Made by a program: the position numbers and the translations under genes. The notes under the pieces were generated by a model. The model had not been told where the DNA came from, ran no database searches, and was given only the letters and a program-made list of their open reading frames with translations. This document shows, piece by piece, positions 6,836 through 60,904 of a DNA stretch of 64,000 bases; the stretch's first letter is position 1; each line of letters begins with the position of its first letter. The DNA is from Candidatus Eiseniibacteriota bacterium (GTDB lineage: Bacteria; Eisenbacteria; RBG-16-71-46). Where the stretch lies: NCBI GenBank assembly GCA_016178725.1, contig JACOSV010000018.1, positions 29,518 through 93,517 of the forward strand, given 5' to 3'.

Positions 6836-7813
6836 TTGATTGACAAGGGCCTCCGCGGCTTCCTAGACTTCTCGACCTTCGATGCTCCGGGTTTCGGCCG
6901 CCGGCTTCTCGGCTTCGCGGCTGGACCGCTGACGATCGCCGCCCTGCTTTGCGGCTGCTCCCCGCAGCGCCCCGGCCGGGCAGTGGAAGACTCGATCACC
7001 AGCGGGCGTATCTCCATCGTCTGTGCTCCGGATCTCGAGCCGTTGATCCGGCGTGAGCGCGGGGCGTTCGTCGCGCTCTACCCGGACGCCGCGGTCGAGA
7101 TCCGGGCCGGCGCGTCGCGCGAGGCGATCCGCGCGCTGTTCGCGGCCGAGTGCGACGTGGCGGCGATCGCGCGCGAGCTCGAAAGCGAGGAACGCGGCGC
7201 GGCGCTTCGCGGAGGGCTGGAGCTGGAGGGCTATCGGTTCGGGCGGGACGGGGTCGCGGTGGTGGTGCATCCGGGGAATCCGGTGCAGAACATCGCGCTG
7301 GACGACCTGCGCGGCATCTACGCCGGCCGGGTGAAGGCGTGGAGCGAGGTCGGCGGCGCGAACCTTGCGGTGCGTCCGGTGTTCCAGGCGCCGGGAGCGG
7401 ACATCACGACGTTCTTCGCGCAGCGGGTGATGCAGGGGGAACAGGTGCAGGTGCCGGTGGTGTATGAAGACTCGGATTCCGACGTGGTCGCCTACGTCGC
7501 GGCCCATCCCGAGGCGATCGGCTTCGTGTCGCTCGCCTGGGCCGACCGCGGCGTACGCGCGTTGCGCGTTGCCTCGCTCAAGGGCCTGCCGTTCTGGAAG
7601 CCGGATCCAGAGACGGTGTACGGCGGCGATTATCCGCTCACCCGCTTCATGAACCTCTACGCCCGCCCCGGCGGACGGGCGCTCGCCAACGGATTCATCA
7701 CGTACGTGACGAGCCGCGACGGCCAGCAGCTGGTGCACGAGCAGGGGCTCGTCCCAACCGCGGTGCCGGTGCGCTTCGTGCGGCGTTCGTCGATGCTGGG
7801 GAGTCACCATTGA
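6836..7813 (+). CDS. PstS-like phosphate-family solute-binding lipoprotein
   Basis: 325 aa from a TTG start. A hydrophobic stretch ends in a lipobox (ALLCGC, lipidated Cys41), so it should be membrane-anchored outside the cytoplasm. The rest is a PBP-like domain: RISIVCAPDLEPLI, then VVVHPGNPVQNIALDDLRGIYAG, and a C-terminal IGFVSLAWADRGVRALRV stretch, as in PstS-type phosphate-binding proteins. No PstC/A/B transporter genes follow. Instead the next genes are TPR, STAS and TolQ/TolR/TonB types, an arrangement suggesting a sensory or energy-transduction role rather than classical phosphate import. The stop overlaps the next ORF by 4 bp. Confidence 0.75.
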   Translation: MIDKGLRGFLDFSTFDAPGFGRRLLGFAAGPLTIAALLCGCSPQRPGRAVEDSITSGRISIVCAPDLEPLIRRERGAFVALYPDAAVEIRAGASREAIRALFAAECDVAAIARELESEERGAALRGGLELEGYRFGRDGVAVVVHPGNPVQNIALDDLRGIYAGRVKAWSEVGGANLAVRPVFQAPGADITTFFAQRVMQGEQVQVPVVYEDSDSDVVAYVAAHPEAIGFVSLAWADRGVRALRVASLKGLPFWKPDPETVYGGDYPLTRFMNLYARPGGRALANGFITYVTSRDGQQLVHEQGLVPTAVPVRFVRRSSMLGSHH

Positions 7814-9633
7814 ACATACAGAGGAGGGGATCGCTCCTGAAGAGACGAGAGCTGAATCGCGCGCCGCACGCGGCATGGATGACGATCGCGTGCATGGTCG
7901 TCGCGCTGGGCGCCGCGGGCGCGGCCCGCGCCGACGACCTCAAGGACGCCCAGACGGCGCTCAAGGCGGGCCGCTACGACGACGCCGCTGCCCTGTTCGA
8001 GAAGGCGGCGGGCCAGGGCTATGCCGCCGGTCGCGCGGGCGTCGGTCAAGTGTGGCTGCGCCGCCGGCAGCTCGACAAGGCGATGGATCAGTTCCAGCTC
8101 GCCCAGAAGATGGATGCCGGATTCGCGCTCTCGTACTGGGGGCAGGGCGAGGTGCTGCGCCTCGAGGACAAGTGCGGCGACGCGATCCCGCTCTACCAGA
8201 AGGCGACCGAGCTCGACCGCAAGTTCCCCGAGGCCGAGCTCGCGCTCGGCGACTGCTACGTGCAGACCCGGCAGTTCGACAAGGGGGTCGCGGCGCTCAC
8301 GGTCGGTCTCGGCTGGGGCACGAAGTGGCGGCCGCGCTTCCTCACGGCGCTCGGACGCGCCGAGGAGTCGCGCGATTCGCTGCGCGCCGCCGGCATCTAC
8401 TTCACCACCGCGCGGCAGGAGGCGCCCGACGACGCGACCGTGCTCAAGGAGCTCGGTGAGTTCTACTTCCGGCGCGGCACGTGGGCGCTCGCCATCCAGG
8501 AGTGCCAGGCGGCGGTCGATCTCGACTCGACCGACATCGACATCCGCTTCGCGCTCGGTCAGGCGCTCTTCTACGACCAGCGGTACAACGACGCGCTCGA
8601 CCAGTACCTGTGGGTGACCCGGCGCGACGCCGATTACGCGCCGGCGCAGCTCGCGCTCGGCAACCTGCTCTTCCTCTCGGGCGCCGCCGACGTCAAGCGC
8701 TACGCCGAGGCGCGCGGCCCGCTCGAGGTCTACACGCGGCTCAAGCCCAACGACCCGAAGGGTTGGAGCCTCCTCGGACGCAGCGATTACTACACGCACC
8801 GACCCGAAGCGCTGGCCGAGCTGCAGAAGGCCGAGCAGCTCGGCGACAAGAGCAAGGAGATGTACACGGTGCTCGGCCGCTACTACGCCGACCAGAAGGA
8901 CTGGGCCAAGGCGCTCGATTTCTTCGGCCGCGGCGATCCCACTCCGCGCGACCTGCTGCTCATCGGGCAGATGTTCGTGTTTCAGAACAATCAGTCGGGC
9001 GCCGACTCGATCTACAAGGCGATCATCGCGCGCGACTCGACCACGAGCGACGCCAAGTTCGCGATGACCGAGCTCGGCAAGGGACGCTTCCGCGCGAAGG
9101 ACTATCCGGGGGCGATCGCGACGCTCAACCGGCGAATCGCGCTTGACCCGAACAGCGGCGAGGCTTACTACTACATCGGTTTGTCGTATAAGGAGATGAA
9201 GCAGTACCCGGAAGCCTTGGACGCGCTGCGCAGGTCGGCGGCGGTCGACTCCGCCAAGGGCGAGCGCCACTTCTGGCTGGGCATTCTCTACGCGCAGCAG
9301 AAGGACGACGAGAACGCGCGGGCGTCGCTCGAGCGTTCGGTCGCGCTCGACTCCACCAGCAAGACGGCGGGCGTCGCCTACCGGCAACTGGGCTACTATC
9401 GTCTCCTGCAGAAGGATTGGACCGGCGCGATCACGCTGCTCGAGCGCGCCGTCTCGCTCAACGATCAGGACGTTCAGGCGATGGTCTGGCTCGGACAGGC
9501 CTGGCAGAACAGGGGCGATCGGGCGAAGGCCGCCGAGTGGTACAACAAGGCGCTCAAGGTCGATCCGAATCAGCCGGACGCGAAGAAGGGTCTGCAGATT
9601 CTCCAGGCCCCGCCCAAGGGAGGAACGAAATGA
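7810..9633 (+). CDS. Exported TPR repeat protein
   Basis: Up to 607 aa. The ORF track starts at a TTG (7810) that overlaps the previous stop. However, a perfect GAGGAGG lies at 7821-7827 and the in-frame CTG at 7837 sits 9 nt after it, giving the start (M)KRRELNRAPHAAW, a good signal-peptide n-region. The true start may therefore be 7837. A signal peptide (cleavage near AARAD) is followed by about a dozen TPR units over the whole length, for example YAAGRAGVGQVWLRRRQLDKAMDQFQ. It is predicted periplasmic, a scaffold for the downstream Tol/Ton-like complex. No enzyme domain is visible. Confidence 0.8.
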   Translation: MNIQRRGSLLKRRELNRAPHAAWMTIACMVVALGAAGAARADDLKDAQTALKAGRYDDAAALFEKAAGQGYAAGRAGVGQVWLRRRQLDKAMDQFQLAQKMDAGFALSYWGQGEVLRLEDKCGDAIPLYQKATELDRKFPEAELALGDCYVQTRQFDKGVAALTVGLGWGTKWRPRFLTALGRAEESRDSLRAAGIYFTTARQEAPDDATVLKELGEFYFRRGTWALAIQECQAAVDLDSTDIDIRFALGQALFYDQRYNDALDQYLWVTRRDADYAPAQLALGNLLFLSGAADVKRYAEARGPLEVYTRLKPNDPKGWSLLGRSDYYTHRPEALAELQKAEQLGDKSKEMYTVLGRYYADQKDWAKALDFFGRGDPTPRDLLLIGQMFVFQNNQSGADSIYKAIIARDSTTSDAKFAMTELGKGRFRAKDYPGAIATLNRRIALDPNSGEAYYYIGLSYKEMKQYPEALDALRRSAAVDSAKGERHFWLGILYAQQKDDENARASLERSVALDSTSKTAGVAYRQLGYYRLLQKDWTGAITLLERAVSLNDQDVQAMVWLGQAWQNRGDRAKAAEWYNKALKVDPNQPDAKKGLQILQAPPKGGTK

Positions 9634-9977
9634 AGCAGCGGCAGGTGGAGAGCATCGCCATCCTCACCCCCAAGGGCTACTTGAGCGGCGGGGACGAAAC
9701 CGACGAGCTCGAGCGCGTCATCAAGACGCTGGGCGAGGGCGGAAACAAGAGCCTGATCATCAACCTGAGCGAGACCCAGCACCTCAACTCGACCGCGCTC
9801 GGCGTCCTCATCTCGGCCCACTCCAGCTACGTCCGCCGCGGCGGGCAGATGAAGCTCTGTGCCGTGGACAAGCGGATCGAAAACATCTTCGTCATCACCA
9901 AGCTGTCGCTCGTCTTCGACGTGTTCCCGAGCGAAGAGCAGGCGATCGCGAGCTTCGCGGAATCGAAGCCCGTCTAG
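9630..9977 (+). CDS. STAS-domain anti-sigma-factor-antagonist-like protein 1
   Basis: 115 aa; ATGA overlap with the TPR gene. The whole protein is a single STAS domain. The switch region reads HLNSTALGVL where SpoIIAA has DSSG, so a phosphorylatable Thr occupies the usual position. Such proteins are cytoplasmic partners of anti-sigma kinases or complex organisers. No kinase or phosphatase partner is encoded nearby. Two relatives are in the window (10005 and 60385); all share a GGDETD-type N-terminal motif. Confidence 0.82.
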   Translation: MKQRQVESIAILTPKGYLSGGDETDELERVIKTLGEGGNKSLIINLSETQHLNSTALGVLISAHSSYVRRGGQMKLCAVDKRIENIFVITKLSLVFDVFPSEEQAIASFAESKPV

Positions 9978-10004
9978 TCGCGGCCTCGGGGAGGGCATGA
10001 TCGC

Positions 10005-10364
10005 GTGGCGATCCGGCGCAGACAGATCGACAGCATCGTCATCCTGTATCCGAAGGGCAGCTTCTTCGGCGACCAGGAGACGGACGATCTGCAGAAGGCG
10101 ATCATGGACGAGGCGGCCGGCAGCAACACCCGGCTGGTCCTCAACATGACCGAGTGCCAGACGCTCAACTCGATCGCGATCGGCGCGCTGATGCGCGGCT
10201 ACTCGAACTACAAGGGGCGCGGCGGCGAGATCAAGCTGTGCGGTCTCGGCAAGCGCCTCCTGGATCTGTTCACGATGACCAAGCTGATCCGTGTTTTCGA
10301 CCACCACGCCACGGAGGAGCAGGCGCTCGCGGCGTTCGCCGCGGGGGCTGCGCCGCCGGTCTAG
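10005..10364 (+). CDS. STAS-domain protein 2
   Basis: 119 aa from GTG at 10005, preceded by GGGGAGGG. A single STAS domain, close to the third STAS protein at 60385 in its N-terminal half (GDQETDDLQKAIMDEAAGSNTRL). In the switch loop (TLNSIAIGAL) the normally phosphorylated position is Ile, so it may be locked in the unphosphorylated-like state or signal through the neighbouring Ser. It sits directly before the TolQ-type gene. Confidence 0.8.
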   Translation: MAIRRRQIDSIVILYPKGSFFGDQETDDLQKAIMDEAAGSNTRLVLNMTECQTLNSIAIGALMRGYSNYKGRGGEIKLCGLGKRLLDLFTMTKLIRVFDHHATEEQALAAFAAGAAPPV

Positions 10365-10379
10365 GAGGACACTCGCGCA

Positions 10380-11120
10380 ATGAGCCGTTTCATCGTTCCG
10401 CTCGGATTCAGCCTCGCCGCGATCGTCTCGATCGCGATCTGGTTCTTCCTCCCGCAGCTCGGCCCGCTCGGTGAGCAGATGAACAAGGGCGGACCCCTGG
10501 TCGCCGGGCTCATCCTGCTCGCGATCCTCCAGACGTCCTTCATCATCGAGCGCGTGTGGAGTCTGCGGAAGGCGGCCGGACGCGGCTCGCTGCCCGACTT
10601 CCTCAACAACGTGCGCAAGGCGCTCCACCGCAACGACGTGCCGGCGGCGATCCAGCTGTGCGGCCAGCAGCGCGGCTCGGCGGCGAACGTGATCCGCGCC
10701 GGCCTCGAGCGCTACCAGCAGGTGCAGGCCGAGGGTGCGCCGAAGGAGAAGGTGGTCGCGGAAACGCAGGCGGCGATCCAGGAGGCGAACGGCCTCGAGG
10801 TGCCGCTGCTCGAGCGCAACCTGATCGCGCTCTCGACCATCGCCTCGATCGCGACCATGGTGGGACTGCTCGGAACGGTGATCGGCATGATCCGCTCGTT
10901 CTCGGCCCTGGGCCACACGGGCGCCGTGGACGCCTCGAAGCTCGCGGTCGGCATCTCCGAGGCGCTCATCAACACGGCGGGCGGCCTGTTCGTCGCCATC
11001 GGGGGCATCGTCTCGTACAACGTGTTCGTGACCCGCGTCGATAACTTCAACTACATGATGGACGAGGCCTCGTACGAGGCCGTCCAGCTGCTCACCGCGT
11101 CGGTGGGCGACCGCCGCTAG
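10380..11120 (+). CDS. MotA/TolQ/ExbB-family proton channel
   Basis: 246 aa, AGGAGG upstream. An extra N-terminal membrane helix (IVPLGFSLAAIVSIAIWFF) precedes the usual three. The core signature is present: STIASIATMVGLLGTVIGMI and ISEALINTAGGLFVAIGGIV. It should form the proton-conducting pentamer in the inner membrane with the two ExbD/TolR proteins encoded downstream, driving a TonB-type protein. TolQ and ExbB cannot be told apart from sequence alone. Confidence 0.88.
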   Translation: MSRFIVPLGFSLAAIVSIAIWFFLPQLGPLGEQMNKGGPLVAGLILLAILQTSFIIERVWSLRKAAGRGSLPDFLNNVRKALHRNDVPAAIQLCGQQRGSAANVIRAGLERYQQVQAEGAPKEKVVAETQAAIQEANGLEVPLLERNLIALSTIASIATMVGLLGTVIGMIRSFSALGHTGAVDASKLAVGISEALINTAGGLFVAIGGIVSYNVFVTRVDNFNYMMDEASYEAVQLLTASVGDRR

Positions 11121-11132
11121 GGGAACGGAACG

Positions 11133-11621
11133 ATGCTCAAGAAGAAGCGCCGCATCGGCATCAGCATCGACATGACGCCGATGGTCGACGTCGCGTTCCT
11201 GCTCCTGATCTTCTTCATGTGCACGACGCAGTTCAAGCCGCCGGAAAAGGACAAGATCGTGCTGCCCGAGTCGAACTCCGAGGCGAAGTCGCCGGAGTCG
11301 GACATCATCACGATCGCGGTGACCGGTCCCAAGCCGGAGTACGCGAACCAGTCGCGCGTGCGCGTCGTGTACCGTCAGGGCGGCCAGGAAGTGACGCGCG
11401 AGCTGATGCCCGAGATGGTTCCGACCGATCTCGCCACCGTGCTCGCGAACGCCCGCGCGGCCAATCCCATGGCGCGCATGATCGTCAAGATGGACAAGGA
11501 TGCGACGTACGGGATCATGGCCGACATGATGAAGGCGCTGCAGGACGCCAAGGCGCCGCGCTTCAACGTCCAGACCGAGCTGGCCGGCAAGAAGGGCCTG
11601 TTCTCGGCCGCCGGAAAGTAG
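11133..11621 (+). CDS. ExbD/TolR-family protein 1
   Basis: 162 aa. One N-terminal membrane helix carries the essential proton-relay Asp (MTPMVDVAFLLLIFFM), followed by a periplasmic domain. It is the partner of the adjacent channel gene. It shares 37 identical nucleotides with the second ExbD gene around this motif but differs in the periplasmic part, so the two probably form a heterodimer or alternative rotors. Confidence 0.88.
   Translation: MLKKKRRIGISIDMTPMVDVAFLLLIFFMCTTQFKPPEKDKIVLPESNSEAKSPESDIITIAVTGPKPEYANQSRVRVVYRQGGQEVTRELMPEMVPTDLATVLANARAANPMARMIVKMDKDATYGIMADMMKALQDAKAPRFNVQTELAGKKGLFSAAGK
11164..11200 (+). repeat. 37-bp exact direct repeat within the two exbD genes
   Basis: Bases 11164-11200 recur exactly at 11725-11761. 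Both copies encode IDMTPMVDVAF of the transmembrane helix. This reflects paralogue conservation or gene conversion; it is not a mobile-element repeat. Confidence 0.8.
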
Positions 11622-11636
11622 AGGAGGTGAGCGACC

Positions 11637-12134
11637 ATGGGTGCTGTTGACGCCCCACAACCACGATCCAGCGGTAAGAAGAAGGGCAAGGGCATCCATC
11701 GGCCCAAGCGCCGTGTCGGTGTGCGCATCGACATGACGCCGATGGTCGACGTCGCGTTCCTCCTGCTCATCTTCTTCATGGTGACCACGGTGTTCCGCAC
11801 GCCGCAGGCGCTCGAGATCAACCTTCCGCCCGACAAGGACGTGAAGATCGAGGTCGCGCAGTCCAAGGTGCTCACGGTGCGGGTGCTCCCGGACAACCGT
11901 GCCTACTGGCGGCGCGGCGAGGATCCCTGGGCCCGCGTCGACGTCGGCAGCTTGAGCGCGGTGTTCAAGGTCTTCCACGGCAACAAGGACATCGTCGTCC
12001 TGATCAAGATCGACCGCGACGCGAAGTTCAACAACATGGTGAGCATCATCGACGAGCTGGATCTCGCGGGTCTGACGCGGTTCTCGCTCGCGACGCTCGA
12101 TCCCAACGAGAAGAAGGAGGTCGAGGCGCTGTGA
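11637..12134 (+). CDS. ExbD/TolR-family protein 2
   Basis: 165 aa, GAGGTGA upstream. A basic N-terminal tail (SGKKKGKGIHRPKRR) precedes the same Asp-containing helix, MTPMVDVAFLLLIFFMV. The periplasmic domain ends LAGLTRFSLATLDPNEKKEVEAL. It is a second rotor subunit for the TolQ/ExbB-type channel. The GTGA overlap with the TonB gene indicates translational coupling. Confidence 0.87.
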   Translation: MGAVDAPQPRSSGKKKGKGIHRPKRRVGVRIDMTPMVDVAFLLLIFFMVTTVFRTPQALEINLPPDKDVKIEVAQSKVLTVRVLPDNRAYWRRGEDPWARVDVGSLSAVFKVFHGNKDIVVLIKIDRDAKFNNMVSIIDELDLAGLTRFSLATLDPNEKKEVEAL

Positions 12135-12862
12135 GGTCGACGGCCGTGATGGACGAGCAGGAGAGTCTATTCAGCTTCATGCCCTACGGGGCGCCCGAGC
12201 TGAAGGAGGTGGCGCGGAAGTACATGTTCCGCGGCGTCCTCGTCGGCTGCGGAGCGTTCCTGGTCGTGTTCATTCTGTCGTTCGGGACCAACGTCTTCCT
12301 GAGCCACCGGCCGCACGAGACGAGCGTCATCGTCGTGCCGTATCGCGAGCTCGCCGCGCCGCCGCCGCTCACGCAGGACGCGCCGCCGCCGCAGGTGCAG
12401 GTCGCGGGGCCGGTGACGCCGCCTACGGTCGGCGTCGCGGTGCCGGTGCCGGACGCCGAGGCGCCGCCGGAGCAGACGATCGCCTCGCAGGAGGAGATCG
12501 CGCAGGTGACGCCGGGCGTTTCGTCGGGACAGGGCGAGCTGGTCGTCGCGCCGCCGACGGACGAGGAGCTGCCCAAGTTCGGCGAGTACGTCTACGTCGA
12601 GGAGCTTCCCGAGGCGATCACCAAGGTGCAACCCGAGTACCCCGAGATCGCGCGGTCGGCCAACGTCGACGGCACGGTGATGATCCAGGCGCTGGTCGGC
12701 AAGGACGGCAGGGTCAAGGACACGAAGGTGGTCAACTCCATCGCGATGCTCGACGCGTCCGCGGTGGCGGCGGTCAAGCAGTGGGTGTTCAAGCCGGCGC
12801 TATCGAACAACAAGCCCGTCGCGGTGTGGGTGGCCGTCCCGGTGCGCTTCTCGCTGCACTGA
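12131..12862 (+). CDS. TonB-family energy transducer
   Basis: 243 aa from GTG 12131 (an in-frame ATG at 12149 is an alternative). One membrane helix (GVLVGCGAFLVVFILSFGTNVFL) is followed by a Pro/Glu-rich periplasmic linker and a C-terminal TonB domain (VQPEYPEIARSANVDGTVMIQALVGKDGRV, then VKQWVFKPAL). It links the proton channel to an outer-membrane or periplasmic partner. It is the last gene of the operon, before a terminator. No TonB-dependent receptor is in the window, so its client is unknown. Confidence 0.88.
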   Translation: MRSTAVMDEQESLFSFMPYGAPELKEVARKYMFRGVLVGCGAFLVVFILSFGTNVFLSHRPHETSVIVVPYRELAAPPPLTQDAPPPQVQVAGPVTPPTVGVAVPVPDAEAPPEQTIASQEEIAQVTPGVSSGQGELVVAPPTDEELPKFGEYVYVEELPEAITKVQPEYPEIARSANVDGTVMIQALVGKDGRVKDTKVVNSIAMLDASAVAAVKQWVFKPALSNNKPVAVWVAVPVRFSLH

Positions 12863-12937: not shown

Positions 12938-12967
12938 TTGACCCCTTGCGGCGCGCCTCCGTATCTT
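12938..12967 (+). promoter_or_regulatory. Predicted promoter of the YIP1-type gene
   Basis: TTGACC (12938-12943), an 18-bp spacer and TATCTT (12962-12967), just after the terminator and 61 nt before the ATG at 13029. Confidence 0.45.
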
Positions 12968-13028
12968 GTCTCGTTCCCGACCGTGGTCTCCCGGGGTCCG
13001 GGCCGCCATCCCCATCAGGAGGACTTCC

Positions 13029-13805
13029 ATGGAGTCGCCCCCCAACACGCCCCTGACCGCGCCGGCGCCCGATGCCGGCGCCGCAGCGCCGAACCTCTCG
13101 CCGTTCCAGCGCGCGATCGCGATCTTCGCCCGTCCGACGGCCGCCTGGAGCGGCCTCGACACGCACGCGCAGTGGTGGTTCCCGCTGATCATCATGATCG
13201 TCTTTGCCGCGTGCTTCTCGACCGTGCTCCACGACCGCGCGCTCATGCCGATGTTGAGCGAGCAGTGGGAGCAGTCGGTGGCGGACGGCAAGATGACCGC
13301 GCAGCAGGTGGATAAGATGGAGCAGATGATGGGCGGTCCGACGGGCAAGGCCATCGCCGTCGTCCAGCAGGCCGTGGCGTGGCCGATCATCATGCTCATA
13401 TCGGCGCTGCTGATCTGGTTCGGCGCGGGATTCGTGCTCGGGACCAAGTTCCGCTACCGACTCGCGCTCGAGACCGTCGCATGGTCGTCACTCATCACGA
13501 TTCCGGGGCAGGTGCTCGCCGGGGCGCTCATGTGGAGCCGCGAAACGATGAAGGGCATCCACACCGGCTTCGGCATCCTGCTGCCCGACGATCCGTCGAA
13601 CAAGCTGCTGGTCGGCCTCGGCATCTTTCTCGACGCGATCGGCCCGCTCTCGCTCTGGTATCTGGCGGTGGTGATCATCGGCGCGGCGGCGCTGTCGGGG
13701 GCGAAGCGCTCGTCGGTCGCCTGGGTGATCGGCGGGATCTACATCGTGCTCATGCTCTTCTTCAGCGTGCTCGGCGGCATGTTCAGCCGGGGCGCAGGCA
13801 GTTGA
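13029..13805 (+). CDS. YIP1-family multi-pass membrane protein
   Basis: 258 aa from the ATG at 13029, preceded by AGGAGG. The cytoplasmic N-terminus has the SPFQRAIAIFARPTAAW signature seen in bacterial YIP1-family proteins. Hydrophobic helices follow near residues 48-63, 116-138, 155-170, 195-225 and 230-252. The family's bacterial role is not established. It precedes the TolC-MacA-ABC exporter genes by 93 bp and may be co-transcribed. Confidence 0.7.
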   Translation: MESPPNTPLTAPAPDAGAAAPNLSPFQRAIAIFARPTAAWSGLDTHAQWWFPLIIMIVFAACFSTVLHDRALMPMLSEQWEQSVADGKMTAQQVDKMEQMMGGPTGKAIAVVQQAVAWPIIMLISALLIWFGAGFVLGTKFRYRLALETVAWSSLITIPGQVLAGALMWSRETMKGIHTGFGILLPDDPSNKLLVGLGIFLDAIGPLSLWYLAVVIIGAAALSGAKRSSVAWVIGGIYIVLMLFFSVLGGMFSRGAGS

Positions 13806-13898: not shown

Positions 13899-15275
13899 AT
13901 GAGCACGAAGGCATTGTGGCGGGTCGGGGCCGTCCTGGCGCTGGCCGTGACGCTCGGGGCCCGCACCGCGGCGGCCGCACCGCTGACCGCGGACGGCGCG
14001 GTGAAGGTGGCGCTCCAGAAGAGCACCGAGATGCTCAACGCCGAGGCGGGCGTCATACAGGCGAAGGCGAGCCTGACCGGCGCGTACGGCGGTCTGCTTC
14101 CGACATTCTCGGTCGGCGCCGGTCGCAGTGACGGCCGCACCAACGGCTCGTTCGGCCAGTCCGCGGTGAGCTTCCTTCCCAACGGCGATCCTTTCCTCGC
14201 GACCGGTTCGCGCTTCAACAGCAGCGCCACGACGCTCTCCGGCAGCTGGAGCATCCTGAGCCTCGGCTCCTGGGCGCAGCGCTCGGCCGCGTCGCACGGC
14301 ATGCGCTCGGCGCAGTTCACCCGCCAGGCCACGCGGAACGACGTGGCGCTCGCCACGCGCCGCCAGTTCTACGGCGTGGTGCAGGCGATCAAGCTGGCCG
14401 AGGTGGCGACCGGAGCGCTCAAGCGTTCCCGTGACGACGAGCGGCGCGTGAACGCGATGTTCCAGGTGGGATCGGTGTCCAAGAGCGATCTCCTCAAGGC
14501 CCAGGTCGCCACGGCGCAGGCGGAGCTCGACTCGATCACCGCCGACCACGCGATCATCGACCAGCGCATCGCGCTCGCGGAGCAGATGGGCGTGATCGAG
14601 CCGGAGCTCGGCGCGGTCGACACGGTGCTGGTCGCGACGCCGGCGAGCTACGACGAGGCGGCGATCCTCTCCGAGGCCTCGCGCGGCCGGCCCGATCTCG
14701 TTGCGGCCGAGGGCTCGCTGCGCTCGGCTCGGGCGAGCGTGGCGGCGGCGCGGCTGGCGCGCCTGCCGTTCGTGAGCGCCACGGGCAGCGCCAGCTTCAA
14801 CTCGCGCCAGTTCTCGACCGTGAGCGGCACCGATCTCAAGCTCGGTCAGGCGCTGGCGCTCCAGCTGCCCGCGAGCGGCTCCAATAGCTCGTGGCGCACG
14901 ACCGTCTCGGTGAGCTGGGACCTGTTCGACCTCGCCGGCATCGACGCGCGCATCGGCTCGAGCCGCGCCGGAGAGATCCGCGCGCAGGCGGCGTACGACG
15001 CGCTCAAGCGCAACCTCGCGAGCGAGGTGCATCAGTCGCTGCTCGCGTACAACGAGGCGCTGGCGCAGAACAACGTGGCGCAGCGCGGACTCGAATCCGC
15101 GACCGAGAACCTCAAGCTGACGCAGGAGAAATACAACGTCGGATCCGCCACGATCCTCGAGTTGATCGACGCGCAGGTGCAGCTGCAGACCGCGCAGAGC
15201 AACGTCGTCAAGGCACTGGCCGCCATCCGCGTCGCCGAGGCGCAGGTCAATCGCGTCCGCGGCCACGGTGAGTAG
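13899..15275 (+). CDS. TolC-family outer-membrane efflux protein
   Basis: 458 aa. A signal peptide (LALAVTLGARTAAAA) is followed by two OEP repeats: long coiled-coil helices (QAKASLTGAYGGLLP; VGSVSKSDLLKAQVATAQAEL; YNVGSATILELIDAQVQLQTAQSNVVKA). It should form the trimeric outer-membrane channel of the tripartite exporter encoded by the next four genes. The family match is clear; the substrate is not. Confidence 0.9.
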   Translation: MSTKALWRVGAVLALAVTLGARTAAAAPLTADGAVKVALQKSTEMLNAEAGVIQAKASLTGAYGGLLPTFSVGAGRSDGRTNGSFGQSAVSFLPNGDPFLATGSRFNSSATTLSGSWSILSLGSWAQRSAASHGMRSAQFTRQATRNDVALATRRQFYGVVQAIKLAEVATGALKRSRDDERRVNAMFQVGSVSKSDLLKAQVATAQAELDSITADHAIIDQRIALAEQMGVIEPELGAVDTVLVATPASYDEAAILSEASRGRPDLVAAEGSLRSARASVAAARLARLPFVSATGSASFNSRQFSTVSGTDLKLGQALALQLPASGSNSSWRTTVSVSWDLFDLAGIDARIGSSRAGEIRAQAAYDALKRNLASEVHQSLLAYNEALAQNNVAQRGLESATENLKLTQEKYNVGSATILELIDAQVQLQTAQSNVVKALAAIRVAEAQVNRVRGHGE

Positions 15276-15299: not shown

Positions 15300-16583
15300 A
15301 TGAAGAAGAAATGGCTGTGGATCGCCCTTGCGGGCGTGCTGGTGATCGTGCTCGTGGTCGCGAACATCGCCCGGACCTCGGGCGGCAAGGTGGAAGGCGT
15401 CCAGCTCGCCCGGCTGCGCGTCGAGGACGTGACGTCGCGGGTCAAGGCGCCGGGCAAGATCGAGCCGAAGACGCAGGTCAAGATCAGCGCCGACGTGCCG
15501 GGCAAGATCATCCGGCTCGCCGTGGCCGAGGGCGACCGCGTGCGCACCGGGCAGCTGCTGCTGCAGCTCGACGACACGCAGTACCGTGCGATCTTCAATC
15601 AGTCGAAGGCGAACCTGGCCGCGGCGCAGGCCCGGCTCAAGGATGCGCGCGCGACCCTCAAGGTGGACGAGGACAACTACGTCCGCCAGCGGTCGCTGTT
15701 CGAGCAGAAGCTGCTCTCGCAGGCGGAGTGGGACCGCGCCGCGGCGACCATCGAAACCGCGCGATCCGCGGCGGCCTCGGCCCAGGAAGACGTCACACGC
15801 AGCGAGGCGATGCTGGCCGCATCCAACGACAACCTCAACAAGACGCACTTCGTCGCCCCGTTCGACGGCGTAGTCAGCGCGCTCGACGTCGAGCAGGGTG
15901 AGATCGTGATGACCGGCACCATGAACAATCCGGGCACGCAGATCATGGTGGTCTCCGACCTCTCGCGCATGCAGGTCCGCGCCGACGTCGACGAGGCGGA
16001 CGTGGTGGACATCCGTATCGGCCAGAAGGCCAGGATCAAGGTGGATGCGCTGCCCGACACTCTGTTCGACGGCACGGTGACCGAGATCGGCAACACGGCG
16101 AAGCGGACGATCACCGCCGGCAGCGAAGGGCAGACGAATTTCGAGGTCCACGTCGTGTTCGACCACACGGTGCCGGCGGTGCGGCCGGGGATGACCGCCG
16201 ACGTGGAGGTGCAGACGGGCACGCACGCCAAGGCCAAGGCCGTGCCGATCCAGGCGGTCGTCGTGCGCACCGAGCGCGAGCTGCAGAAGGCGATGCGCAA
16301 GACCGCGGGGCGCAGCAAGCCCAGGCCCGGCGATGCCGCCGCGGACGAGGACACGGTGGGCAAGAAGGACAAGGAGGTCACCGGCGTCTTCGTCGAGAAG
16401 AACGGCGTCGTGACGTTCGTGCCGGTCAAGGCCGGGATCGCCAGCGAATCGATGATCGAGGTGACCGGCGACGTGAAGGAAGGCGACATGGTGGTGTCCG
16501 GGCCGTACAAGGCGCTGCGCGAGCTCAAGCCCGGCGCCAAGGTCAAGCGCGAGGAAGCGGCCGGCGTTCGGAAGAAGGGCTGA
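15300..16583 (+). CDS. MacA-like periplasmic adaptor (HlyD/RND membrane-fusion family)
   Basis: 427 aa. An N-terminal membrane anchor (KKKWLWIALAGVLVIVLVVAN), then barrel-sandwich/lipoyl halves (VSADVPGKI-like IKISADVPGKIIRLAVAEGDRV and HFVAPFDGVVSALDVEQGE) flank an alpha-helical hairpin. A beta-barrel and membrane-proximal domain follow. A charged Lys/Asp insertion (about residues 340-362) interrupts the C-terminal domain. It bridges TolC and the ABC permeases. Confidence 0.88.
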   Translation: MKKKWLWIALAGVLVIVLVVANIARTSGGKVEGVQLARLRVEDVTSRVKAPGKIEPKTQVKISADVPGKIIRLAVAEGDRVRTGQLLLQLDDTQYRAIFNQSKANLAAAQARLKDARATLKVDEDNYVRQRSLFEQKLLSQAEWDRAAATIETARSAAASAQEDVTRSEAMLAASNDNLNKTHFVAPFDGVVSALDVEQGEIVMTGTMNNPGTQIMVVSDLSRMQVRADVDEADVVDIRIGQKARIKVDALPDTLFDGTVTEIGNTAKRTITAGSEGQTNFEVHVVFDHTVPAVRPGMTADVEVQTGTHAKAKAVPIQAVVVRTERELQKAMRKTAGRSKPRPGDAAADEDTVGKKDKEVTGVFVEKNGVVTFVPVKAGIASESMIEVTGDVKEGDMVVSGPYKALRELKPGAKVKREEAAGVRKKG

Positions 16584-57709: not shown

Positions 57710-60388
57710 ATGAGGCCGCCTCCGCCGATGCCCGCCGATCCCGCTGCGTCACCCGCCCGCGGGCGCCCGCGCGCCCCGGACCGTTCGCCGCTCATGGAGC
57801 AGTACCGCGGCGTCAAGCGCGCGCATCCCGACGCGTTCCTGTTCTTCCGCCTCGGCGACTTCTACGAGATGTTCTTCGACGACGCGGTGCGCGGCGCCGC
57901 GCTGCTCGGGCTCACGCTCACGTCGCGCAACAAACAGGATCCCGCGCCCATCCCGATGTGCGGCATCCCATGGCACCAGCGCGACGCGTACGTCGCACGG
58001 CTGCTGCGGCTCGGGCACAAGGTCGCGATCTGCGATCAGCTCGAGGACGCCGCCACGGCGAAGGGCATCGTCCAGCGCGGCGTGACCGAGGTGCTCACGC
58101 CCGGCTCGGTGATGGCCGAGGGCTTCGTCGAGCCCGCCGCGAACAACTTTCTCGCCGCGCTCTGGCCGGCGGGCGATTCGCTCGGCGTCTGCCTGATCGA
58201 CACCTCGACGGGCGAGGTCAAGCTCGCCGAGCCGCCGTGGGACGAAGCCTCCGCGTTCCTCGCGCGGCTCGGCGTTTCGGAGTGGGTCGTACCCGAGGCC
58301 GACGCGCTCGTCGAACCCGCGCGCGGGCGGCTCGACGCCGCGCGCCGCGGCCTCGCCGGCGCCGTGAGCCCGATGCCGATCGCGGCGTTTCTCGCGGGCG
58401 ATCCGCTCGCCGACCGCTGGGGCGCCGAGGGCGCGCGCGAAGCCGCCGCGGCGCCCGAGGCCGCTCGGGCGGCGGCCGCCGCGATCGCCTACCTCGAGCG
58501 CGTGCAGGGCGGTCCGGCGCGCCAGCTCGTCCGGATCGAGCGCTGGAGCGCCGCGGGGACGATGACGGTCGATGCGACGACGGCGCGTCACCTCGAGCTC
58601 TTTCAGCATGCCCCCGGCGGTGAGGCGCGTCACACGCTCTGGCACCACGTGAACCTGTGCGTCACGGCGCTCGGCGCGCGCCGCCTGCGCGCGTGGCTCG
58701 AGCGCCCGCTCGCGACCCTCGCGCCGCTCGTCGCCCGCCAGGACGCGGTCGAGCGCTGGATCGCAGCCGGGGCCGCGCGCGGCGAGGTCCGCGAAGCGCT
58801 GCGCGGCATGCCCGATCTCGAGCGTCTCGCGGCACGCATCGTCTGCGAGCGCGCCACGCCGCGCGACCTGGGCGCGCTGCGCGACGCGCTCGCGCGCCTG
58901 CCGCATCTCGCGGCGCGGATCGACGCGAGCGGCGTTCCGATGTCCTCGCCGGCGCGCGCGGCGCTCGCCGGAATCCCCGCGCTCGAGTCGCGGCTCGCTG
59001 CCGCGCTGGTGGACGAGCCGCCGGCGATCGCGCGCGAGGGCGGCATCGTGCGGAGCGGATTCGACGAGCTGCGCGACCGCCTCGATCAAGTCGCGCACTC
59101 CGGCAAGCGCTGGATCATGGACCTCGAGGCCGCGGAGCGCGCGCGCACCGGCATCCCGAGCCTCAAGGTCGGCTTCAACCGTGTGTTCGGCTACTACCTC
59201 GAAGTGACGCGGCCGCATCTCGCGCGCGTGCCCGCCGACTACGAGCGGCGCCAGACGCTCACCACCGCCGAGCGCTTCGTCACGCCGGAGCTCAAGACCA
59301 AGGAAGGCGAGGTGCTGGGCGCCGAGGAACGTCTCGTGGCGCGCGAGATCGAGCTGTTCACCGCGCTGCGCGCCGAGGCGGCGACGCACCGCGCGGCGAT
59401 CGAGCGAGCCGCCGACGCGCTGGCGGCGCTGGACGCCGAGTCCACGCTCGCCGAGGCCGCCGCGCGCTACGGCTGGACGCGTCCGAGGCTCGAAGACTCC
59501 GACCGGCTGACCCTCGATGGCGCGCGTCACCCGGTGGTCGAGCGCCTGCTGCCGGGCGGCGAGTTCGTGCCCAACGACTGCGCGCTCGACGGCGCGCGGC
59601 GCCAGATCCTGCTCCTCACCGGGCCCAACATGGGCGGCAAGAGCACCTACCTGCGTCAGATCGCGCTCGCGGTGCTGCTCGCGCAGGCGGGATCGTTCGT
59701 GCCCGCGACGCGCGCCGAGATCGGGCTCGTCGACCGGCTGTTCACGCGCGTCGGCGCGAGCGACCGGCTCGGCGCGGGCGAGAGCACGTTCATGGTCGAG
59801 ATGCGCGAGACGGCCGCGATCCTCGCCGCCGCGACGCCGCGGTCATTGGTGCTCCTCGACGAGCTGGGCCGCGGCACCGCGACCTACGACGGCCTCGCGC
59901 TCGCGTGGGCGGTGACGGAGTTCCTGCACGCGGGCGGGGGCCCCAGGCCGCGCACCCTGTTCGCGACGCACTACCACGAGCTGACGCAGCTCGCCGGCAC
60001 GCTGCCCCGGCTCGCCAACGTGCACGCGACCGTGAAGGAGTGGGGCGACGAGGTGGTGTTCCTGCACCGCATCGCCGAAGGCGCCGCCGATCGCTCCTAC
60101 GGGATCCAGGTGGCGCAGCGGGCGGGGCTGCCGGCGCCGGTCGTGGCGCGGGCGCGCGAGGTGCTGCGCGAGCTCGAGCGCGAGCGCACCGTCGAACACC
60201 TCGAGGCCGCGGAAGCCGGGGGATCGTTGCCGCTGTTCGCGGCCGCGCCGGCGCCGGCGCATCCGGTGATCGCCGAACTCGAGAGGCTCGACCCGGAACG
60301 CCTCACGCCGCTCGAAGCCCTCGAGCGGCTCGCGCGCTGGAAGCGCGAGGTCGGCGGGGGCGGGGGCGGCGGGCGGCCGAACGCCTAG
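57710..60388 (+). CDS. mutS: DNA mismatch repair protein MutS
   Basis: 892 aa. Mismatch-recognition FYEM motif (RLGDFYEMFFDDA), connector and lever domains, then ATPase Walker A TGPNMGGKSTYLRQ, GAGESTFMVEM and Walker B LVLLDELGRGTATYDG. The end, SLPLFA...LERLDPERLTPLEALERLARWK, is the MutS C-terminal signature. A short Pro-rich N-terminal extension precedes PLMEQYRGVK. Its stop overlaps the stop of the convergent STAS gene. Confidence 0.97.
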   Translation: MRPPPPMPADPAASPARGRPRAPDRSPLMEQYRGVKRAHPDAFLFFRLGDFYEMFFDDAVRGAALLGLTLTSRNKQDPAPIPMCGIPWHQRDAYVARLLRLGHKVAICDQLEDAATAKGIVQRGVTEVLTPGSVMAEGFVEPAANNFLAALWPAGDSLGVCLIDTSTGEVKLAEPPWDEASAFLARLGVSEWVVPEADALVEPARGRLDAARRGLAGAVSPMPIAAFLAGDPLADRWGAEGAREAAAAPEAARAAAAAIAYLERVQGGPARQLVRIERWSAAGTMTVDATTARHLELFQHAPGGEARHTLWHHVNLCVTALGARRLRAWLERPLATLAPLVARQDAVERWIAAGAARGEVREALRGMPDLERLAARIVCERATPRDLGALRDALARLPHLAARIDASGVPMSSPARAALAGIPALESRLAAALVDEPPAIAREGGIVRSGFDELRDRLDQVAHSGKRWIMDLEAAERARTGIPSLKVGFNRVFGYYLEVTRPHLARVPADYERRQTLTTAERFVTPELKTKEGEVLGAEERLVAREIELFTALRAEAATHRAAIERAADALAALDAESTLAEAAARYGWTRPRLEDSDRLTLDGARHPVVERLLPGGEFVPNDCALDGARRQILLLTGPNMGGKSTYLRQIALAVLLAQAGSFVPATRAEIGLVDRLFTRVGASDRLGAGESTFMVEMRETAAILAAATPRSLVLLDELGRGTATYDGLALAWAVTEFLHAGGGPRPRTLFATHYHELTQLAGTLPRLANVHATVKEWGDEVVFLHRIAEGAADRSYGIQVAQRAGLPAPVVARAREVLRELERERTVEHLEAAEAGGSLPLFAAAPAPAHPVIAELERLDPERLTPLEALERLARWKREVGGGGGGGRPNA

Positions 60389-60741
60389 GCGTCGGCCGGG
60401 CTCATCGCGAACGCAGCGAGCGCTTCGACCTGCGTCGGATAGTGGCCGAAGATGTTGATCAGCTTCGCCACCACCAGCGCGCTGGTCATCCGGCGCTGCA
60501 GGCCGCACAGCTTGATGCTCGCGTTGCGACCCGCGTAGTTGCGATACGCCTCGACCAGGACACCGATCGCGGTCGAGTTCATCATGCTGCACTCGGAGAG
60601 ATCGAGCAGCAATCGCGTGTTGCCGCCCACCGCTTCGTCGAGGATCGCCTTGCGGAGCTGATCGGTCTCGTCCCCGCCCCAGAACTCGCCGCCCGCCTGA
60701 ATCACGGTCACGCCCGCTTCGACCCTGCGTCGCACGCTCAT
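60385..60741 (-). CDS. STAS-domain protein 3
   Basis: 118 aa from ATG at 60741 (GGGGAGAACGTG directly upstream); the track's longer start is unsupported. Single STAS domain: GGDETDQLRKAILDEAVGGNTRL, then the switch MMNSTAIGVL with Thr in the phosphorylation position. Closest in the window to STAS 2. It ends 4 bp inside mutS on the opposite strand. No kinase lies nearby. Confidence 0.82.
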   Translation of the reverse strand: MSVRRRVEAGVTVIQAGGEFWGGDETDQLRKAILDEAVGGNTRLLLDLSECSMMNSTAIGVLVEAYRNYAGRNASIKLCGLQRRMTSALVVAKLINIFGHYPTQVEALAAFAMSPADA

Positions 60742-60904
60742 CACGTTCTCCCCGCGCGCCGACCCCGCCCTCCCGGCGCGGACGCGCCGGAGCGGCAAGG
60801 ATCGAGATACGGGACGCCGTCGGCGACCGCGACTCGACGGGGCAGGGAATGGGCGGGGGGCCGGGTGCGATGTCGCGTCGGCTTCACGACGTCCACATCA
60901 ATTG

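Follow-up and report, generated by a model that had tools for sequence, protein, structure and literature searches.

Introduction

Small STAS proteins of the SpoIIAA/RsbV type are antagonists in partner switches with the kinases SpoIIAB/RsbW, and their textbook role is transcriptional output through anti-anti-sigma activity (PMC8256260). The residue phosphorylated in Bacillus subtilis SpoIIAA is Ser58 (PMC3517971). Some partner switches have targets that are not sigma factors or are unknown. Among them are SypA/SypE, BtrV/BtrW and RbaV, which combine a small STAS protein with an RsbW-like kinase but show no obvious sigma factor (PMC8256260, PMC10120452). In Vibrio SypA, the phosphosite is S56 in the motif FLDSSG, and the following residue, S57, contacts the kinase (PMC10120452). 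Besides these switches, the STAS protein MlaB acts directly on the transporter subunit MlaF, with its phosphosite-equivalent Thr52 lying within the MlaF contact (PMC7367683).

Both STAS switches and ExbB-ExbD-TonB motors are well-known systems, and the open-licence literature searched contained no report of the two stably united in an operon. Searches for STAS together with ExbB/TolQ and for Eisenbacteria together with TonB returned no description of such an operon, and a review devoted to STAS-only proteins mentions neither ExbB nor TolQ (PMC8256260).

Organization of the STAS-ExbB operon

The window, that is, the whole stretch of 64,000 nucleotides analysed here, is part of contig C83 of a 3.07-Mb MAG (G000). 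The genome belongs to Candidatus Eisenbacteria, a little-known phylum of soil and groundwater. Eight genes of the plus strand follow one another in the order SBP-TPR-STAS1-STAS2-ExbB-ExbD-ExbD-TonB with spacings of only -4 to +27 bases. The first (6836-7813) encodes a secreted or lipoprotein-type substrate-binding protein that is distantly PstS-like; it matches Pfam PBP_like_2 with 114.5 bits and scores 121.9 bits against TIGR02136, below the cut-off of 206.6. The gene of the TPR-repeat protein (7810-9633; TPR_16, 131 bits) overlaps both the SBP gene and STAS1 by four bases, and the N-termini of the SBP and TPR proteins resemble export signals, that of the latter being signal-peptide-like. The ATG of STAS1 at 9630 overlaps the TPR stop codon (ATGA), with GGAGG just upstream.

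STAS1 (9630-9977; Pfam STAS, 53.8 bits) is an RsbV/SpoIIAA-type switch protein carrying N-S-T-A-L-G, and STAS2 (10005-10364; 42.7 bits) is its paralogue with N-S-I-A-I-G. The original prediction of two STAS reading frames between a TPR protein and a proton channel is thus borne out by the Pfam domains. They are followed by an ExbB/TolQ proton-channel subunit (10380-11120; MotA_ExbB, 102.1 bits), two ExbD/TolR subunits (11133-11621 and 11637-12134; ExbD, 81.7 and 98.1 bits), both with the membrane Asp motif DMTPMVDVAF, and a TonB-family energy transducer (12131-12862; TonB_C, 81.3 bits). The MotA_ExbB, ExbD and TonB_C domains all exceed their cut-offs within this one operon. The locus therefore resembles ExbB-ExbD-TonB and TolQ-TolR systems in having ExbB, two ExbD proteins with membrane Asp motifs and a TonB protein. 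It differs from them in the addition of SBP, TPR and one or two STAS genes, and its ExbB protein falls far below the NCBIfam equivalog cut-offs (exbB, 67 bits against 206.2; tolQ, TIGR02796, 107.3 bits against 221). Downstream of TonB, and conserved as neighbours by synteny, lie genes for a Yip1-domain membrane protein (12966-13805, plus strand; Yip1, 32.5 bits), a TolC-like outer-membrane factor (13899-15275, plus strand) and an HlyD/MacA-like adaptor (15300-16583, plus strand), the last two named from sequence.

A third STAS paralogue, STAS3, was anticipated at 60385 and is present on the minus strand (60385-60798; Pfam STAS, 38.7 bits) beside mutS. The matching STAS gene of the sister genome G034 (locus L184) also lies beside mutS, so STAS3 is a conserved third paralogue.

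STAS family assignment and fold

With a Pfam cut-off of 22.6 bits, STAS1 and STAS2 each clearly contain a single STAS domain. Against the NCBIfam model TIGR00377 (ant_ant_sig), the STAS proteins of the window score 51.3, 46.8 and 46.5 bits and narrowly miss the cut-off of 53.45; they are therefore called RsbV-like rather than RsbV. In the AlphaFold model of STAS2 (pLDDT 87), Ser56 lies in the first turn of the helix spanning residues 56-71. The top structural matches of this model in the PDB are SpoIIAA in SpoIIAA-SpoIIAB complexes, followed closely by RsbV from the RsbV/RsbW complex. In a PDB search with STAS2, matches to a designed 'Pizza' protein were rejected as a repeat artefact, no single stretch of which passes.

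The window proteins are thus similar to SpoIIAA/RsbV antagonists in having a single STAS domain of about 115 amino acids, a Ser that starts helix 2, and these antagonists as top matches in both fold and sequence. They are unlike them in having Asn for Asp before the Ser, and also in genomic context: SpoIIAA and RsbV switch partners with SpoIIAB and RsbW, whereas here no kinase or sigma factor gene adjoins STAS1 or STAS2, which are linked instead to ExbBD-TonB genes.

Position of the phosphorylatable serine

The motifs named in the original prediction, NSTA in STAS1 and STAS3 and NSIA in STAS2, are literally present. Its assignment of Ile to the phospho position of STAS2 proved to be a one-residue register error. 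A HMMER alignment to SpoIIAA structures places L-N-S-T-A-L-G of the query under M-D-S-S-G-L-G, and PDB entry 1tid reads M-D-A-S-G-L-G at the same columns. This entry is the S58A mutant of the SpoIIAA phospho-Ser. Since the register matches SpoIIAA Ser58, 1tid and SypA S56 alike, the predicted phospho-acceptor is the Ser directly after Asn, in STAS1 and STAS2 alike, and the Ile of STAS2 stands one residue later.

Over 75 STAS domains, the phospho-acceptor column holds Ser in 73 and Thr in two, and the next column, occupied by Ile in STAS2, varies among T, V, I, L, M, S, P and A. The Ser is kept in every examined copy of STAS1, STAS2 and STAS3, including 17 of 17 STAS2 sequences. Loss of the phosphosite in STAS2 is ruled out by the alignment to SpoIIAA and 1tid together with this Ser column. 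The residue before the Ser is Asn, not Asp, in 69 of the 75 domains, among them the STAS proteins encoded beside an RsbW kinase. Asn is therefore characteristic of the group and does not indicate loss.

Selection and phylogeny of the STAS paralogues

Comparison with the nearest relatives gave pN/pS values of 0.16 for STAS1, 0.32-0.39 for STAS2 and 0.21 for ExbB. All three genes are therefore constrained, with STAS2 evolving faster than STAS1. In a STAS tree built on 106 columns, in which many forks lack resolution, the STAS2 sequences fall into a single clade (99/96), joined by STAS3 (100/97) and separate from STAS1. The ExbB-linked STAS proteins are also separate from the kinase-linked STAS proteins of an lspA cluster. 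Both STAS groups occur together in families f3, f5 and f9 of the tree, and both locus types are present in f170. Since these four families carry kinase-linked as well as ExbB-linked STAS genes, a one-step move of the kinase-linked STAS into the ExbB operon is ruled out, and the sequences indicate that the ExbB-linked STAS is an extra paralogue, not simply a relocated kinase STAS. In family f8, a lone STAS gene of the kinase-linked clade lies near a divergent pilin-like gene (L135:9182-9523 and L136:9305-9649).

Conservation of synteny

A total of 47 genomes of the phylum were searched with STAS1, STAS2 and ExbB, and the loci were checked by profile searches. The ExbB operon was found in 34 genomes; 31 of these have STAS positioned between TPR and ExbB, and 17 have the STAS1-STAS2 pair. 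All pairs belong to the window's family of 20 genomes, in which STAS1 orthologues occur in 19 and STAS2 in 17; STAS1 stands alone in two (G035 and G036), and the operon is absent from the incomplete genome G019. A single STAS gene precedes ExbB in these two genomes, in G018, G016, G005 and G001 and in eight genomes of f11. Families with a single STAS gene in the slot are f2, f3, f5, f9 and f11, and the STAS-ExbB link spans six families of the phylum. The operon lacks STAS in G017 (f10) and in G014 and G015 (f8). A search of 385 genomes of relatives recovered similar ExbB proteins in 15 genomes outside the phylum, with STAS missing from the operon in most. TPR-STAS-ExbB was present in two of these, G099 and G219, and also in G391, a family mate of G219, which makes three genomes of two lineages.

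The original prediction named synteny restricted to this genome as the finding that would speak against it. Such uniqueness is excluded by the 31 of 34 phylum genomes and the cases outside the phylum. Orthologous synteny in many genomes, combined with purifying selection, likewise excludes a chance arrangement.

Other arrangements were seen around the operon. In some of the genomes outside the phylum, the slot between TPR and ExbB is taken by an unrelated membrane protein, about 235 amino acids long, with an RYxYIGFEVFP-like N-terminus (L167:9549-10268, L168:10620-11354 and L179:10717-11409), and the two examples tested gave no Pfam match. In f11, the STAS-linked set is directly followed downstream by a second ExbB-ExbD-ExbD-TonB set (L111, L112, L126 and L127). 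G462 has a TPR-ExbB-ExbD-ExbD-TonB operon without an internal STAS, and the TonB gene of this operon converges tail-to-tail with a STAS gene (L291:4010-5205).

A distant kinase and candidate phosphatases

The ExbB operon contains neither a kinase nor a phosphatase gene. A genome search for RsbW-type kinases and PP2C phosphatases, as suggested with the original prediction, revealed one clear stand-alone, intact orphan RsbW-type kinase (C51:388-834; HATPase_c_2, 81.3 bits), in which the ATP-binding boxes EAGTNAIQHG, DTGPGF and GRGI are readable, and seven SpoIIE-type phosphatase domains. The kinase gene thus lies at a distance, unlike those of the SypA/SypE, BtrV/BtrW and RbaV systems.

Its locus has the order lspA-rluD-rsbW-yqgF. 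The arrangement lspA-rluD-STAS-rsbW-yqgF is found in f3, f4, f5, f6, f7 and f9 and at about ten loci of another phylum, and in f1, f2 and f8 (L215 and L216 in the last) the cluster is without STAS, the kinase still being there. By this gene order, the window's family has lost the STAS gene from the lspA cluster. Kinases of this type group together, the C51 kinase and the kinase of G017 grouping with STAS-paired kinases. In G017, whose ExbB operon lacks STAS, the most STAS1-like protein (60% identical to STAS1) is encoded directly beside the only such kinase of the genome, and in f11 the kinase gene adjoins a SpoIIE phosphatase gene. The picture suggested is that of a split partner switch, with the kinase at one locus and STAS in the motor operon. 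Other small STAS proteins of the genome, namely STAS3 and one on C17, could be the kinase substrate instead.

Two further STAS loci were observed in this genome. At C82:30170-34040 (L062:6174-10034), a stressosome-like cassette comprises an RsbR-like STAS, an RsbS-like STAS with an MDS motif, an RsbT-like ATPase, a PP2C fragment, a histidine kinase-like domain and a response regulator. A degenerate STAS-like gene lies between mraZ and rsmH on the minus strand (C1:40180-40461; L064:6181-6462), and its phospho-Ser position, judged by eye, is not Ser or Thr (HVDFRLV).

Proposed mechanism and alternative explanations

Our leading but tentative reading is that STAS1 and STAS2 are phosphorylatable RsbV/SpoIIAA-type partner-switch proteins fixed in an envelope-motor operon, served by a distant kinase and PP2C phosphatases and probably acting on the ExbB motor in a way similar to that of MlaB on MlaF. 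The orphan C51 kinase would phosphorylate STAS1 and STAS2, and the SpoIIE/PP2C phosphatases would reverse this. With less assurance, one phospho-form of STAS might bind the cytoplasmic face of ExbB and might then raise or lower the activity or the assembly of the proton motor. Because the SBP and TPR proteins carry export signals, a cytoplasmic STAS protein would have access only to the cytoplasmic domain of ExbB and the short N-terminal segments of ExbD and TonB, and ExbB offers the only large cytoplasmic surface encoded in the operon. MlaB, the STAS subunit of MlaFEDB, offers a parallel as a stand-alone STAS protein associated with a transport machine of the envelope. That machine is an ABC transporter, whereas here it is an ExbB/ExbD/TonB motor driven by protons, and contact of STAS with the motor is suggested by synteny and the MlaB precedent. 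Regulation of the motor by STAS is plausible, and since G017, G014, G015 and most genomes outside the phylum carry the operon without STAS, STAS would be a modulator at most. A more specific proposal, in which a Ser-phosphorylation partner switch was re-aimed from sigma factors to the ExbB/ExbD motor, phospho-dependent binding to ExbB gates TonB energy transduction and the kinase was left behind in the lspA-rluD-yqgF cluster, is rather doubtful.

Conventional output has to be weighed against motor control. STAS1 and STAS2 may be ordinary RsbV-type antagonists, expressed together with the motor, that release a sigma factor or another RsbW target by binding the orphan RsbW kinase, so that the operon reports the state of the envelope and the motor is the input, not the target. 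The RsbV/SpoIIAA-like sequence and fold, the orphan kinase with its phosphatases and the textbook function of such proteins all agree with this. It would leave the repeated placement of STAS next to ExbB unexplained, and we consider it somewhat unlikely. Three sigma70 region-3 proteins, named by eye, are encoded in the genome, an RpoD-like protein on C76, a FliA-like protein on C31 beside an FlhG-like ATPase, and a second RpoD/RpoS-like protein on C16; none adjoins STAS or kinase genes, which neither proves nor excludes a transcriptional output. Considerably less probable is a passive neighbour, a STAS gene inserted once before ExbB and inherited by descent without a functional tie to the motor. 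The same operon does exist without STAS in some genomes, and the depth of the tree is limited by its 106 columns. Nevertheless, the link has persisted across six of the phylum's families and two outside lineages, a duplicate STAS gene has been retained as well, and the genes are tightly spaced with an ATGA overlap.

A division of labour along the lines of the original prediction, with STAS1 as the switch and a phosphosite-less STAS2 as a fixed scaffold of the motor, rested on the one-residue misalignment and finds no support. It is very improbable, as the Ser is invariant in STAS2 and every clade, the STAS1 orthologues included, shows variation in the Ile column. What speaks for some difference between the paralogues is the faster evolution of STAS2 and the correspondence of its Ile (position 59) to SypA Ser57, a contributor to kinase binding (PMC10120452), so the kinase affinity of STAS2 could differ.

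Significance

The results correct the idea that one of the two STAS proteins is dead. To our knowledge, post-translational control of ExbB/ExbD/TonB motors has hardly been described. If the tentative reading of motor control is true, the operon would represent a phosphoswitch on such a motor, with candidates named for the kinase, the substrate Ser and the target. The results also provide a candidate substrate for the core RsbW kinase of an uncultured phylum.
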